NCBI GenBank assembly: GCA_944332205.1
Contig: CALVJN010000013.1
Location: 1-40,085 of the forward strand
Direction of reading: 5' to 3'
Source of the DNA: an uncultured Bacilli bacterium
GTDB taxonomy: Bacteria; Bacillota_I; Bacilli_A; RF39; UBA660
DNA: 40,085 bases
A program made the translations under genes and the position numbers. Each line of letters starts with the position of its first letter. The first letter of the stretch is position 1. Positions 11,690 through 40,007 of this stretch are shown one piece after another. The notes under the pieces were generated by a model, which had not been told where the DNA came from, did no database searches, and saw only the letters and a program-made list of their open reading frames with translations.

Positions 11690-14200
11690 TTAATCTTCAA
11701 AAAAATCATCAAAATAGTTATCATCATCTTTTTCTGTTTCATCTAATGTTAAATCAGTTGCTATTTTATTGTTTCTATTGTTGATAGTTACATCTTCATT
11801 TAATTTTGTTAAATTGATAGCACTATTAGCCTCTTTATACGATATTTTCCCATTATTTAAATCATTAAAATTAATAAATTTTGCATTATTACTTTCTTTT
11901 CTTCCTAATGTATTAAACTCTTGATTGTATTTTTCGTTAGAGTTATTTTGCAAATTATTTACATCTGCATTATATAGAAATTTCCATTTTTTGGGTTTTA
12001 AATGTTTTTCTTCGATTGAATCATTATTGTTATTTTCACCTATGTTTGGAAACATATCTATTAAATTTCCATTTGATATTCTTATATTATTTTCTGGATT
12101 TATTAGTTGTCCAAAAATATCAGTATTTTTTGGCTTTTCAATGTCTATTTTCTTTCTAGTATCGTACATTGGTGCTCCAAATAAATATTCATTATTTTTT
12201 CTACTACTATTTTCAGTACTGTCATCATTATTGTTTATGTCTTCTCTTGATATTTTAGGATTATTTCCTGAACTCATTAATTGACCAAAAATATCAGTGC
12301 TTTTTGGCTTTTCTAACTCTATATTTCTTCTAGTGTCATACATTGGTGCTCCAAATAAATACTCATTATTTTTTCTACTACTATTTTCTGTACTATCATT
12401 ATTATCGTTTATAGCTTCTCTTGATATTCTAGGGTTATTTCCTGAATTCATTAATTGATCAAAAATATCAGTGCTTTTTGGCTTTTCTAACTCTATATTT
12501 CTTCTAGTGTCATACATTGGTGCTCCAAATAAATACTCATTATTTTTTCTACTACTATTTTCTGTACTATCATTATTATCGTTTATAGCTTCTCTTGATA
12601 TTCTAGGGTTATTTCCTGAATTCATTAATTGATCAAAAATATCAGTGCTTTTTGGCTTTTCTAACTCTATATTTCTTCTAGTGTCATACATTGGTGCTCC
12701 AAATAAATACTCATTTTGATTATCTGTTACATTATAATTTTTATTATCATTTGAGTTTCTGCTTTGTTCTTTTACATCATCTAAAATTAATGAATTTCCT
12801 ATTGAGTCTATTTGCTTATCAAAAATATTATCTGATTTATATTTTATGTTTTCTTTTTCTCGCTCTTTTTCATCTAGTGTATTAGAAAATTCTCCTCCTA
12901 ATAGTATTTTGTCAGCACCACCAGGTTTTAATTCTGTAGTTACCGTATAAGTTTTGGGCATTTTAATAGTTGGCTCATTTTTTTTAATTATTTCTATTCC
13001 ACCGGAAAGGAGTAAATTATCAAGGCTTTTTGAATCATTATTTTGATTAAACTTTTCATTAAACCCTCTTGATATTGCCGTTGGTCCTATTTTAGCAAAT
13101 TTATTTAATGTTTTTTCACTTAAAATTGTTTTTACTGGTTTATTTTCATCCATTGTTCTTTTATCAATTGCTACAGGTATAGTATTTAATTTTTTCAACT
13201 CATCATTATTTTGAATAGAATTTCCAGCTTCTTGTTCATACCTTGTTGGTGCTATTTCTTTTCTCCATTCCTCTACAGGCTTTTCACCTTTTTCTTCTAA
13301 TATAATATCGTTAAACTCTTTATCAAATCTTGGAAGTTCTTTCTTTATAACGTCTGGATAAATATTTTTACTATTCTCTATTGCTTTTCGTATATCAAAA
13401 ATATCCATATATTCGCGATTATCGTATACCGTATATGAAAATGCTTGTTTTAAAAGAGTTAAACAAACGTCTGGATATCTTGACCCTAATGCAAAAATTC
13501 TTTTATATTCACTAGTTATATCTACAATAAAACTCATTATTCTTTCCTGTATAAATGGAGTATATTTCATTTTTCTTGCTGTTTGCTTCTCGAATTTAGG
13601 CAATGTTCCCATCATTATTTTTATAGTTTCTTCTCGTGTTGGTTCTGGAACTTCTATTTTTTGAAATCTTCTAGTAAAAGCTTTATCGCGTAAAATGTAC
13701 CTTTCATATTCTTCAGTCGTAGTTGCTCCGATTACTTTTATACTACCACGACCAAGCCCTTCTTTAAATATATTAGCAAAGTCAAGTGATGAAGAGTCTG
13801 TTGATCCAATTAACATGTGTATTTCATCAATAAACAAAATAACTTTCTCTCTTTTTTTTAGTTCATCAATCATTTTTTGAACTTTGCTTTCACCACTTGG
13901 CATTGTACCTAAAAGTGATGCTGTTTTTATATTTATGATTGTATACCCTTTTAAAGCATCTGGAATATCATTTTTTTGTATTCTATATGCAAGTCCTTCT
14001 ACGATGGCCGTTTTTCCGATTCCTGGTTTTCCTATCAATATAGCAGATTTTTCAGGAGTTAATAGAACAAGAATTAATTCTTTAATTTGTTTATCTCTAC
14101 CAATAGCAGGATTTGTTATAAATTCATTTTCTGTTACATTTTCACCATAACGATCTAGTACACTAAAATTGGCTTCAAAATTAATTAGTTTCTCATCCAT
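11690..14200 (-). CDS. ClpA/B-type single AAA+ domain protein with repetitive disordered tail
   Basis: An 836-residue protein. Residues ~28-300 are one AAA+ module like the first ATPase domain of ClpB/ClpC: NPAIGR, Walker A GKPGIGKT (57-64), Walker B ILFIDEIH (121-128), sensor GATTTEEY and arginine finger RRF (177-179). The KYRG pore loop of Clp unfoldases is replaced by GTMPSGES, and there is no N-domain, second AAA+ ring or ClpP-docking loop. Residues ~330-836 are Asn/Ser/Lys-rich and look disordered, with four 58-residue repeats containing NEYLFGAPMYDTR. Not a standard Clp; more likely a scaffolded ATPase of unknown target. Confidence 0.8.
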   Translation of the reverse strand: MDEKLINFEANFSVLDRYGENVTENEFITNPAIGRDKQIKELILVLLTPEKSAILIGKPGIGKTAIVEGLAYRIQKNDIPDALKGYTIINIKTASLLGTMPSGESKVQKMIDELKKREKVILFIDEIHMLIGSTDSSSLDFANIFKEGLGRGSIKVIGATTTEEYERYILRDKAFTRRFQKIEVPEPTREETIKIMMGTLPKFEKQTARKMKYTPFIQERIMSFIVDITSEYKRIFALGSRYPDVCLTLLKQAFSYTVYDNREYMDIFDIRKAIENSKNIYPDVIKKELPRFDKEFNDIILEEKGEKPVEEWRKEIAPTRYEQEAGNSIQNNDELKKLNTIPVAIDKRTMDENKPVKTILSEKTLNKFAKIGPTAISRGFNEKFNQNNDSKSLDNLLLSGGIEIIKKNEPTIKMPKTYTVTTELKPGGADKILLGGEFSNTLDEKEREKENIKYKSDNIFDKQIDSIGNSLILDDVKEQSRNSNDNKNYNVTDNQNEYLFGAPMYDTRRNIELEKPKSTDIFDQLMNSGNNPRISREAINDNNDSTENSSRKNNEYLFGAPMYDTRRNIELEKPKSTDIFDQLMNSGNNPRISREAINDNNDSTENSSRKNNEYLFGAPMYDTRRNIELEKPKSTDIFGQLMSSGNNPKISREDINNNDDSTENSSRKNNEYLFGAPMYDTRKKIDIEKPKNTDIFGQLINPENNIRISNGNLIDMFPNIGENNNNDSIEEKHLKPKKWKFLYNADVNNLQNNSNEKYNQEFNTLGRKESNNAKFINFNDLNNGKISYKEANSAINLTKLNEDVTINNRNNKIATDLTLDETEKDDDNYFDDFFED
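12074..12715 (-). repeat. Four in-frame 174-bp tandem repeats in AAA+ gene
   Basis: Units run 12715-12542, 12541-12368, 12367-12194 and a diverged, incomplete one from 12193 to about 12074. Units 1 and 2 look identical at DNA level by eye. Unit 3 differs at a few codons (GQLMSS for DQLMNS) and unit 4 fades after NNIRIS. Each encodes NEYLFGAPMYDTR, then an EKPKSTDIF core and an acidic Asn/Ser linker. The gradient suggests recent duplication at the promoter-proximal end. Confidence 0.92.
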
Positions 14201-25322: not shown

Positions 25323-26891
25323 CTAAATAAAATTATTAAAAGTAACTTTAATATTTATTGTTTTATCTTCAAATATTTCAATTTTTTCAATTAAGTTAAT
25401 TATTAATTCTCTACTTAGTTCTTTCATAGATAAAAATTTATTAACATACTCATTAATCATTTTATTTTTAGACTCTTCACTGAAATTTTCATTAATACTA
25501 TTGTTTAAATTATTATATTTTTGTTGTTTTACATCTAATTCGTTTTCTAATTTTGTTTTAACTCTATTAAATTGCTCTTCAGTTATCACTTTATTTAATT
25601 TATCAAAATAGATATTATCTAAATTATTAATAATGTTATTTATTTCAGTTTCAAGAAATGATGTTTCTTTTTTTATATTTTCTTTACTATCTTCATTTAT
25701 ATTTTTTAAAGTTTCTTCTTTTATTTTCTTTCTATCAATATAATTTAAACATAATTCTTTTAATGTATTTAAAATAGTTTTTTCTAATATATCATAATTA
25801 TTAGAATGAGTTGTACATACATGACTTTTCATATATGTTCTATAATAATTGCACATTGTATAACATCTATTATCTTTTTTTCTTCTTGAAGTAACTGATA
25901 TTCTATGCCCACAATCACCACAATATAATAAACCAGCTAATAAATTAATTTCTTTTTTTTCATTTCTTCCGACATTTTTAGGGATCCTTTTTTGTACTTC
26001 ATAAAAGATATCTTTATCGATAATAGCCTCATGAGTATTTTCTACAATTATATAATTTTCATGATTATTTTTAATAATTTTTTTTACTTTATAATTAACT
26101 TTATTTCTTTTATTTTGAACTAAATCTCCAGTATACATTCTATTAGTTAAAATATCTCTAATTGTCTTAGCGTGCCATAATCCGTAATTAAAATGATAAT
26201 TATTTTTCCATTCAAAACTATAATATTCTGCTGGCGTTTTTACTTTTTCATTTGTTAATTTTAAAGCTATTTTATAGCAGGTTAATCCCTCTAAACACAT
26301 ATCAAATATTCTTTTAACAATAACTGCTTGCTCTTCAAAAATTACTAATTTGTTTTTATCATTAGGATTTTGCATATAACCAAAAGGAGTTCTTCCTCCT
26401 ACCCATTTACCTTCTTTTTGCTTTGCTCTTAAACTTGATTTAATCTTTTTAGATATATCTTTTGCATACATATCATTCATAATTGCTTTGAAAGGAGCAA
26501 TATCATTATTGGAATTATCTAAATAAGTATCAATATTATCAGTAACAGCTATATATCTAACTCCATGACTTGGGAAAAATTTTTCTATCAATTCCCCTGT
26601 ACCAATATAATCTCGCCCCAAGCGTGACATATCTTTGGTAATAACCATATTAATTTTTCCCTTTAAGATATCATCTATCATTCTTTTAAATGCTGGTCTA
26701 TCAAAATTAGTACCACTATATCCATCATCAATATAAATATCAACAAGTCTTAAATTATTTTCTTTAACATATTGAGTTAATAAACTCTTTTGATTTGTAA
26801 TACTTTCACTCATCTCAGTTTTATCGTCATCCTCACGAGATAACCTAATATATAATCCAACATTAGAAAACATATTTATTCCTTTGCTCAT
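25323..26891 (-). CDS. Serine recombinase of TnpX/TndX type, full length (copy 1)
   Basis: A 522-residue large serine recombinase. Residues ~10-160 are the resolvase domain with nucleophile Ser18 (LYIRLSRED) and DMSRLGRDYIGTGELIE. Then come a recombinase domain, the zinc ribbon CGDCGHRI ... CNYYRTYMKSHVC, and a long coiled coil. The start ATG overlaps the stop of the 58-codon companion ORF (ATGA), indicating coupled translation. A second ATG at 26873 has AAAGGA upstream. It could move a small element, but no cargo boundary or termini are identified. Confidence 0.93.
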   Translation of the reverse strand: MSKGINMFSNVGLYIRLSREDDDKTEMSESITNQKSLLTQYVKENNLRLVDIYIDDGYSGTNFDRPAFKRMIDDILKGKINMVITKDMSRLGRDYIGTGELIEKFFPSHGVRYIAVTDNIDTYLDNSNNDIAPFKAIMNDMYAKDISKKIKSSLRAKQKEGKWVGGRTPFGYMQNPNDKNKLVIFEEQAVIVKRIFDMCLEGLTCYKIALKLTNEKVKTPAEYYSFEWKNNYHFNYGLWHAKTIRDILTNRMYTGDLVQNKRNKVNYKVKKIIKNNHENYIIVENTHEAIIDKDIFYEVQKRIPKNVGRNEKKEINLLAGLLYCGDCGHRISVTSRRKKDNRCYTMCNYYRTYMKSHVCTTHSNNYDILEKTILNTLKELCLNYIDRKKIKEETLKNINEDSKENIKKETSFLETEINNIINNLDNIYFDKLNKVITEEQFNRVKTKLENELDVKQQKYNNLNNSINENFSEESKNKMINEYVNKFLSMKELSRELIINLIEKIEIFEDKTINIKVTFNNFI

Positions 26892-29122: not shown

Positions 29123-29968
29123 TTATTTTAATTTAGATTTATTATTATATTTATTTGTATAATAATTTATTGATTTTGAAACTAAATCTTCACTCATTTT
29201 CTCAATACATTCCTTTGATTTTATAGCGATTAAAAAATTATCTTTTCCCATCATCTCAATTAAATAACTTATCATTAAATGAGCATAATCATAACTATAA
29301 TATTCTGCTGGCGTTTTTACTTTTTCATTTGTTAATTTTAAAGCTATTTTATAGCAGGTTAATCCCTCTAAACACATATCAAATATTCTTTTAACAATAA
29401 CTGCTTGCTCTTCAAAAATTACTAATTTGTTTTTATCATTAGGATTTTGCATATAACCAAAAGGAGTTCTTCCTCCTACCCATTTACCTTCTTTTTGCTT
29501 TGCTCTTAAACTTGATTTAATCTTTTTAGATATATCTTTTGCATACATATCATTCATAATTGCTTTGAAAGGAGCAATATCATTATTGGAATTATCTAAA
29601 TAAGTATCAATATTATCAGTAACAGCTATATATCTAACTCCATGACTTGGGAAAAATTTTTCTATCAATTCCCCTGTACCAATATAATCTCGCCCCAAGC
29701 GTGACATATCTTTGGTAATAACCATATTAATTTTTCCCTTTAAGATATCATCTATCATTCTTTTAAATGCTGGTCTATCAAAATTAGTACCACTATATCC
29801 ATCATCAATATAAATATCAACAAGTCTTAAATTATTTTCTTTAACATATTGAGTTAATAAACTCTTTTGATTTGTAATACTTTCACTCATCTCAGTTTTA
29901 TTATCATCTTCACGTGATAGTCTAACATATAATCCAACACTAGAAAGTATATTTATCTCTTTATTCAT
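29123..29968 (-). pseudogene. Serine recombinase copy 2, truncated and fused to foreign tail
   Basis: 281 codons. The first ~225 residues are nearly the same as copy 1, including nucleophile LYVRLSRED; residues ~26-225 are identical. After AEYYS the sequence leaves the recombinase and continues as YDYAHLMISYLIEMMGKDNF with a ~35-residue helical end. The recombinase domain end, zinc ribbon and coiled coil are missing, so integration activity is unlikely. The tail resembles the C-terminus of a peptidase-MA-like protein (YxxxxLMxxYLIExxGKxxF). This suggests that a deletion fused two genes. Confidence 0.8.
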
Positions 29969-38800: not shown

Positions 38801-38892
38801 TATGATCTCTTTGCAAAGATAAACTATTAATATAATTAGGTAGGTGTATTAATCTATCACTTAATACTATTCCAATAGTTAAAAAATAATGT

Positions 38893-39095
38893 TTATTCAA
38901 CATCAACATATTCATCACCAATTTGTTCAACTTGTTTAATAAAAATGCCCACTTTTGTTAAATCATTAATAATATTTGATTTGAATAGTACATCTATTAC
39001 TTTTTTTCAACATTCTTTTTTCCATATCCTGTTACTAACATTTTAGTCATATCATTATTATTAATTACTATCACTTGATATTTCTTCTCTTCCAT
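38893..39095 (-). pseudogene. Small protein gene split by a frameshift at an A7 run
   Basis: ATG 39095 opens MEEKKYQVIVINNNDMTKML, then VTGYGKKNVEKK and a stop. One more A in the A7 run (T7 at 39001-39007) would continue it as VIDVLFKSNIINDL through to EQIGDEYVDVE, ending at 38893, about 67 residues in all. The coding character after the stop is clear. Cause unknown: mutation, slippage or a homopolymer sequencing error. It overlaps the upstream membrane-peptide gene. Confidence 0.55.
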
Positions 39096-39192
39096 CTTTA
39101 TTACTCCATTCATCAGATTTTTTTGATACTTTTAAAGCTGAATATAAAAACAATATTATTGTTATAAATATAAATAAAAATATTATAAACAT
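39061..39192 (-). CDS. 43-residue membrane peptide
   Basis: ATG 39192 follows AAAGGAGGAAAT. Residues 2-19 are one membrane helix (FIIFLFIFITIILFLYSA) and the rest is a charged Ser/Asp/Glu tail. Its 3' end overlaps the frameshifted ORF by 35 bp. It is the first gene of the small operon leading to the orphan ABC ATPase, directly downstream of the GC-rich structured segment. Function unknown. Confidence 0.5.
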   Translation of the reverse strand: MFIIFLFIFITIILFLYSALKVSKKSDEWSNKDGREEISSDSN

Positions 39193-39224
39193 ATTTCCTC
39201 CTTTATTATTTTCAGTTTAATTAT

Positions 39225-39367
39225 GTTTTATCAAACGACTATCAATATAGTTACCACTGGACTTTCACCACTTCCCATCAAGGAAGATACTCTCGATTGT
39301 TGCGACGGTTTTATCACGCTCGACTATCGATTGAATATGCGTATCATTATCTGTATTTGATAAAAAC
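39225..39367 (-). ncRNA. Candidate structured RNA, GC-rich, closed by a 10-bp stem
   Basis: No ORF covers this stretch, and its G+C is clearly above that of its surroundings. TTTTATCAAA (39226-39235) and TTTGATAAAA (39356-39365) pair to enclose 120 nt. Inside are ACTAT/ATAGT (39238-39251) and CTTCC/GGAAG (39271-39286) hairpins. A repeated block, GATAGTCG then TGATAAAAC, occurs at both ends on the minus strand. It follows a terminator and precedes the ribosome site of the 43-residue gene, so a 5' leader element or independent sRNA on the minus strand is likeliest. It matches no class I can name. Confidence 0.5.
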
Positions 39368-39383
39368 TATTTAATTTTTAGAA

Positions 39384-39419
39384 CAAAAAAATTGGGTGAG
39401 AGAATTTCTCCTCTCACCC
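39384..39419 (-). terminator. Terminator of sigma-region-4 protein gene
   Basis: GGGTGAGAG (39394-39402) and CTCTCACCC (39411-39419) form a 9-bp perfect stem. The minus strand follows with AATTTTTTTG. Confidence 0.88.
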
Positions 39420-39448
39420 TTTATACTGAAATAGACAAAAAGTATAGT

Positions 39449-39910
39449 CTAAAATTTAAATTTTTTTGAATTTTTTTCTAAAGCTCTATCAATACTAAAC
39501 TTAACAGCCATTTTTGTACAGTTTTCTTCTTTAGCAATTTGCTCTAATGTTTTATTTTGAAAAAAGTATTTATAAATTCTTTTTTTCTGAATAGTTGGTA
39601 AAGAACTTATAACTTTTCTTATATCATCAATTATTAAGTTATTTAATAATTCATCTTCTATTGAATCAGTCTTTGAAATAATTTCATCATTATACTGCCC
39701 AGATAAAATATAATCATTATATTCTTTAAATCTAGCATTCTCATACTTTTCATTTTCATCAAATAAATCATATATTTCTTTATTAACTTTGATTTCTTGC
39801 AATAGTCCTTTACTATCATAAAAACTAATAATATATAAGTCATCTTTTGTACTACTACTTAATGTATATGGATTATCAATAAACTTTCTTCTAATAGGAT
39901 GCTTGTCCAT
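39449..39910 (-). CDS. Sigma-70 region 4-like protein (mobile-element type)
   Basis: A 153-residue protein from ATG 39910, which has AAAGGAGAG upstream. Residues 1-95 include a beta-rich segment with YIISFYDSKGLLQEIKVNKE and an acidic helix. Residues ~100-150 are a sigma region 4 HTH (SLPTIQKKRIYKYFFQNKTL, EQIAKEENCTKMAVKFSIDRA). No region 2 is present, so it is not a complete sigma factor. Such proteins are frequent regulators in Clostridia/Bacilli conjugative or integrated elements. It lies ~100 bp from an IS3-family end. Confidence 0.75.
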   Translation of the reverse strand: MDKHPIRRKFIDNPYTLSSSTKDDLYIISFYDSKGLLQEIKVNKEIYDLFDENEKYENARFKEYNDYILSGQYNDEIISKTDSIEDELLNNLIIDDIRKVISSLPTIQKKRIYKYFFQNKTLEQIAKEENCTKMAVKFSIDRALEKNSKKFKF

Positions 39911-40007
39911 CTTCTCTCCTTTCAACTTTTTTCAAAAATTGAAAGAAGGTGGTCCTCTTATTTTGAATCTAATAATTTCACCACAAAAAAAACTACGCAC
40001 ACTAAAT

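Follow-up and report, generated by a model that had tools for sequence, protein, structure and literature searches.

Locus and features

The window is the whole stretch of DNA that was analysed: 40,085 nucleotides from an uncultured Bacilli bacterium (GCA_944332205.1, contig CALVJN010000013.1, positions 1 to 40,085). Close to its far end a structured RNA lies on the minus strand (39367-39225), behind a gene for a sigma-70 region 4-like regulator and in front of a small membrane-peptide ORF. The features of the locus are collated below in the direction of transcription; L011 and L066 are two relatives of the same genus.

39449-39925, minus: gene for a 158-aa sigma-70 region 4-like regulator, of a kind found upstream of most relatives
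39394-39419, minus: hairpin resembling an intrinsic terminator, between the sigma-like gene and the RNA
39367-39385, minus: boxA remnant TGTTCT----AAAAATTAAATAG; L011 retains TGTTCTTTGAAAACTAAATA
39225-39367, minus: whole RNA element, compact pemK/canT-type (fold, Rfam match, pair count)
39355-39365, minus: 5' arm of closing stem P0, UUUUAUCAAAU (comparative pairing)
39254-39350, minus: RF02913 (pemK RNA) match, 37.1 bits, cut-off 34.8 (Rfam search)
39341-39350, minus: AUAAUGAUAC, the best-conserved element, beginning with the three bases that the inactivating canT(S3) change hits in Tn916
39301-39325, minus: P1 tip, AGTCGAGCGTGATAAAACCGTCGCA, the same as the Tn916-type tip but for one missing C
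39271-39286, minus: P2 hairpin, CUUCCUUGAUGGGAAG; the sequences differ in L011 and L066, the pairing is kept
39258-39270, minus: P3, UGG-UGAAAGU-CCA, the stretch GGTGAAAGTCC noticed earlier; pemK-specific, no riboswitch loop
39238-39251, minus: P4 hairpin, ACUAUAUUGAUAGU (comparative evidence, fold)
39226-39236, minus: 3' arm of closing stem P0, GUUUGAUAAAA (comparative pairing)
39061-39192, minus: ORF for a small membrane peptide of 43 aa, immediately following the RNA and preceded by a ribosome site
38892-39096, minus: remains of the module's next small ORF, disrupted by a frameshift

An earlier note, made from the sequence alone, had described 39225-39367 as a GC-rich, non-coding segment between a terminator and a ribosome site, and each of these points was confirmed. 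The segment has a G+C content of 37.1% (window, 24.1%), a level reached by only 1.1% of 143-nt stretches; no plausible protein is encoded by the segment; and it is flanked by the terminator at 39419-39394 and by the ribosome site preceding the 43-aa ORF. A short ORF starting similarly to the latter is present in L011 and L066. The minimum-energy fold of the minus strand comprises the closing stem, perfect over 10 bp (11 with a G-U pair, 39365-39355 with 39236-39226), and four inner helices, in agreement with the closing stem and inner hairpins that had been noticed. The folding energy, at z −1.1 to −1.5 relative to shuffles, was not significant and, being only modestly below them, was dropped as proof of structure; the structure therefore rests on comparative evidence. 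The internal repeat GATAGTCG..TGATAAAAC remarked on in the earlier note is present, but it carries no significance: copy one is the P1 tip, in which AGTC-GAGCGTGATAAAACCGTCGCA matches Tn916 minus one C, and copy two is made up of hairpin P4 and the 3' arm of the closing stem. Because Tn916 and other relatives have no such repeat, the likeness of these two unrelated parts is a coincidence.

Just 5' of the sigma-like gene, a conserved GAGG(A/T)CCACC-like element was observed (39947-39956, minus; also at L008, L021, and L065). It encodes an 'RSPP' peptide in a spurious frame at many loci and may belong to the leader or promoter of the regulator operon.

Assignment to RF02913

A sensitive Rfam search of 38950-39460 returned RF02913, pemK RNA, at 37.1 bits (E 3.4e-5; curated cut-off 34.8 bits), and the same score was obtained in the genome search. 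The segment had been put forward as a candidate new RNA, a proposal to be refuted by a significant Rfam hit; with a significant match to a known class, it belongs to a known structured-RNA family and is neither a new family nor a known riboswitch. The match extends over the whole model, and AUAAUGAUAC, helices P1 to P3, and the GGUGAAA loop are shared; both the AUAAUGAUAC start and the loop, GGUGAAAnUCC, are present in the window copy. It differs in that P1 of the window carries a 38-nt extension, as does P1 of Tn916. This insert in the first helix is probably the cause of the negative outcome of the default whole-window Rfam scan, in which only a tRNA was found and pemK RNA was missed. Neither the closing stem P0 nor hairpin P4 is covered by the Rfam model (61 positions), which also leaves out boxA and the 5' domain; it is typed 'Cis-reg', with hits that carry no functional description.

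The faint resemblance to cobalamin or FMN riboswitch loops that had been pointed out was not substantiated: neither model gave a match up to E 10 in the sensitive search of 38950-39460, and the loop is the pemK-specific one. A riboswitch reading was dropped in view of the missing family match and the variable downstream genes. A wcaG match of 26.5 bits (cut-off 42) fell in the terminator region and was discarded as being under the cut-off.

As a separate observation, the default Rfam filters lose this pemK RNA with its Tn916-type P1 insert, and published family counts may be too low.

Comparative structure

Conservation and covariation were evaluated in an alignment of 22 sequences with 28 pairs, from which the 5' domain had been cut out beforehand so that P0 could be aligned. 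Pairing was kept in 96.1% of the paired cells (74.9% in shuffles), a share that is favoured by the definition of the structure from the same 22 sequences; the double changes are not favoured in this way, and 149 double-change cells were counted against 40.5 in shuffles, with 26 pairs showing double changes, 10 of them contributed by P0. The covariation was 0.716 (0.293 in shuffles), and sliding the partner registers destroyed the signal and gave nothing similar. Among the consensus helices (22 sequences including the window), P1 and P3 are paired at 100% and P2 at 89%, its register being off by one in the window rows. P0 forms a perfect 10-bp stem in 24 of 49 loci, as against 5.7% of cross-locus combinations of 5' and 3' arms. 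The closing stem, absent from the Rfam model, is genuine.

Compact form

In Tn916 and nearly all relatives, a 5' domain of approximately 100 nt lies between P0 and AUAAUGAUAC. It has a closing stem of its own (helix of at least 7 in 31 of 34 loci versus 28% of cross-locus combinations). The domain is absent in the window, L011, and L066, all of one genus; in this compact form the 5' arm of P0 is followed by ACAG and then directly by AUAAUGAUAC. P2 and P4 vary in sequence among the three copies with the pairing kept, and joint changes were found at pairs 25-128 (CG, CG, UA) and 29-90 (UG, UA, CG); by these compensatory changes, the compact form was under selection as an RNA. It represents a natural deletion or minimal variant, pointing to a part that may be dispensable. 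When an exact 19-base pattern of the compact form was searched among genomes, L011 and L066 were the only true relatives. The remaining hits, one of them in a viral contig, were rejected, the rest of the RNA being absent. At L091, from the same genus, the compact RNA is preceded by genes for XRE repressors and for holin- and endolysin-like proteins (translations judged by eye), which suggests a prophage as the source element of the compact RNA.

Relationship to canT of Tn916

Plasmid pCF10 carries a Tn916-type element (L059) with an RF02913 match of 55.0 bits (E 3.3e-9) at 2323-2423; the match lies after orf8 (1810-2040) and before xis (2501-2704). The vanB element of pMG2200 (L060, Tn1549-type) gave 57.8 bits in the same orf8-xis interval, and at L024 the RNA lies 3' of orf7/orf8-like genes and 5' of a Tn916-type xis and integrase. 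A weak, sub-cut-off match to RF03532 (SQ2397) was additionally seen at 904-1057 of L060.

The orf8-xis interval is canT, a cis-acting, orientation-specific, processive antiterminator, which works without any other Tn916 gene, is inactive in trans, and acts on foreign terminators too, and whose mutants excise normally (Wirachman and Grossman, PMC11658703). Antitermination is abolished by canT(S3), an ATA>TGC exchange whose first base is nucleotide 283 counted from the orf8 stop, and by canT(D162), a 162-bp deletion from +229 to +390 (PMC11658703). On the assumption that the spacing in the pCF10 element equals that in Tn916, which is supported by the presence of ATA at the predicted place, canT(S3) maps to L059 2323-2325, i.e., the first triplet of AUAAUGAUAC and the first bases of the Rfam match, and canT(D162) corresponds to L059 2269-2430, which takes out the whole match. 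The link between pemK RNA and canT thus explains the failure of both mutants. The AUA of AUAAUGAUAC, needed for canT activity, is intact in the window copy. Within a fragment of 400 bp, canT(S3) had only a small effect, and a fragment of 291 nt that included the region was inactive (PMC11658703), so the pemK core by itself may be insufficient for antitermination.

The window RNA shares with canT its place behind a sigma-like regulator gene, AUAAUGAUAC, the closing stem, P2 to P4, and an almost identical P1 tip. It differs in having neither the 5' domain between P0 and AUAAUGAUAC (L059 2194-2322 in Tn916) nor an intact boxA, and in being followed by an ABC ATPase gene, whereas xis-int follows canT; the two sigma-like proteins show no likeness by BLASTP. 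HK022 put, the Bacillus EAR, and conAn2 of pLS20 (PMC11658703, PMC8955417) have the same role, processive antitermination by a cis-acting RNA, but are likened by role alone; nothing points to common descent. PMC11658703 makes no mention of Rfam or boxA. Within the literature searched, no further paper on canT with Tn916 and antitermination was found, nor any earlier report equating pemK RNA with the canT core, and we treat this identity as apparently unreported. It unites an Rfam class without assigned function and an experimentally shown antiterminator, and it provides canT, whose sequence logic its discoverers had been unable to read from folding predictions, with a covariation-supported structure. 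As a new-family candidate the segment is ordinary, being of a known class; its interest is that an RNA class hitherto an orphan is assigned to a known mechanism.

Distribution and gene neighbourhood

Among the genomes sampled, RF02913 was present in 3 of 12 of the genus, 10 of 98 of the family, and 22 of 193 of the order; for the class the count was 30 of 395. Single genomes hold as many as five copies, and this patchy spread in multiple copies is the pattern of a mobile element. A sigma-70 region 4-like protein is encoded upstream on the same strand at at least 35 of 50 loci. Whether the RNA always precedes ABC ATPase genes had been raised as a point to check, and among the relatives it does not: at the 48 loci with reading frames, the downstream genes were serine recombinases (20), PemK (12), phage tail-fibre-like genes (6), and Tn916-type integrase (5), ParA also being among them. 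PemK, at only 12 of the 48 loci, was dropped as the regulated gene, and L027, inside a reading frame, was set aside as a probable false positive.

The tail-fibre-like genes directly follow the RNA at L007, L008, L013, L021, L023, and L025, possibly reflecting late-gene antitermination in prophages; at L013 the RNA is found without an upstream sigma-like gene.

boxA

At 37 of 50 loci a boxA-like element, TTCTTTGANAACTGAATA, was found upstream of the RNA with at least 16 of 18 positions matching; shuffles gave means of 11-13. The same element also precedes 16S rRNA in L039 and lies on the 16S-23S spacer side in L041, for which reason we take it to be the NusB/S10 boxA; same-class genomes served as the reference, the assembly of the window genome having no 16S gene. 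Thus, the boxA-like UUCUUUGAAAACUGAAUA stands before most relatives as it does in same-class rRNA operons, whereas in the window it is broken, the TTTGA core being gone. The active 452-bp canT fragment of Tn916 begins at L059 2166, within boxA (2160-2169), so an intact boxA is dispensable in that reporter. Its role may lie in processivity or in the natural context. A hairpin 5' of boxA, conspicuous in L003, L017, L023, and L065, among others, is not general and was rejected as an obligatory part.

Proposed function and alternatives

The window RNA belongs to the pemK family (RF02913), and its structure, position, and critical bases show homology to the canT core of Tn916; it is probably a cis-acting, canT-type antiterminator behind a sigma-70 region 4 gene. 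Its function by relationship would be antitermination rather than ligand sensing, and we infer that the window copy antiterminates, or once did, in the manner of canT, with the polymerase as the direct target. The activity itself was demonstrated for Tn916 canT only, where neither the sigma-like protein nor any other Tn916 protein is required (PMC11658703). In the proposed course of events, the polymerase would transcribe past the sigma-like gene, and the emerging nascent RNA would fold into a multibranched structure (P0 with P1 to P4) that displays AUAAUGAUAC and GGUGAAA.UCC. The RNA would then act on its own polymerase, such that later terminators are ignored and the downstream genes of the element are read; in element circles or induced prophages, the regulator transcript might run into a long structural or transfer operon. 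On the window minus strand, few terminator-like sites lie downstream of the RNA.

The copy may not be active at present, because it lies in what looks like a decaying remnant of a mobile element. Its boxA core is missing, a frameshift splits the next small ORF into two parts similar to the two halves of the intact ORF in relatives, and the recombinase that L011 and L066 keep downstream is gone, with an ABC ATPase gene in its stead; hence the copy looks partly decayed. Together with the low Rfam score, these observations favour a relic, i.e., a former canT-type antiterminator that is nonfunctional in the present genome, and such a state has nearly an even chance of being the true one. Against it, the copy retains AUAAUGAUAC, the GGUGAAA loop, and every helix intact, and two other genomes of the genus retain the compact form with compensatory changes.

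A cis-regulatory leader for a single downstream gene, acting as a riboswitch or by translational control, is unlikely. The 'Cis-reg' type, the name pemK, the position before small ORFs, and the PemK gene next in line at a quarter of the loci (12/48) point that way; however, the downstream genes, among them integrases, PemK, tail fibres, and ParA, are too diverse to share a single ligand or target, no riboswitch family was matched, and the Tn916 homologue is an antiterminator that acts even on foreign terminators (PMC11658703). A DNA element without RNA function, such as an attachment or recombinase-binding site, could account for the inverted repeats and for the recombinase gene often found a few hundred bases away, but is highly improbable given the covariation including G-U pairs, the conserved loop, the six loci that precede tail genes instead, and the orientation specificity of canT with normal excision of its mutants (PMC11658703). 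A separate trans-acting small RNA, to which the upstream terminator and a nearby promoter-like site might be referred, can scarcely be credited, as there is no terminator at the 3' end of the RNA, promoter hits are at chance level, and canT is not trans-acting (PMC11658703).

Beyond the window, the antiterminator reading would predict antitermination in about one in thirteen of the genomes sampled in the class. We suggest tentatively, and at somewhat less than even probability, that pemK RNAs are a widespread family, used by conjugative elements and prophages of Bacillota for processive antitermination in cis, and that the genus of the window possesses a compact form of approximately 140 nt working without the 5' domain and boxA.

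Other features of the window

Two further features were recorded. The region 29123-29968 is a truncated near-copy of 25323-26891 (serine recombinase), with approximately 230 N-terminal residues shared, and it appears to be the product of a recent duplication or recombination. An AAA/ClpB-like ORF at 11690-14200 (minus) contains several long tandem protein repeats (EYLFGAPMYDTRRNIELEKPKSTDIF...).
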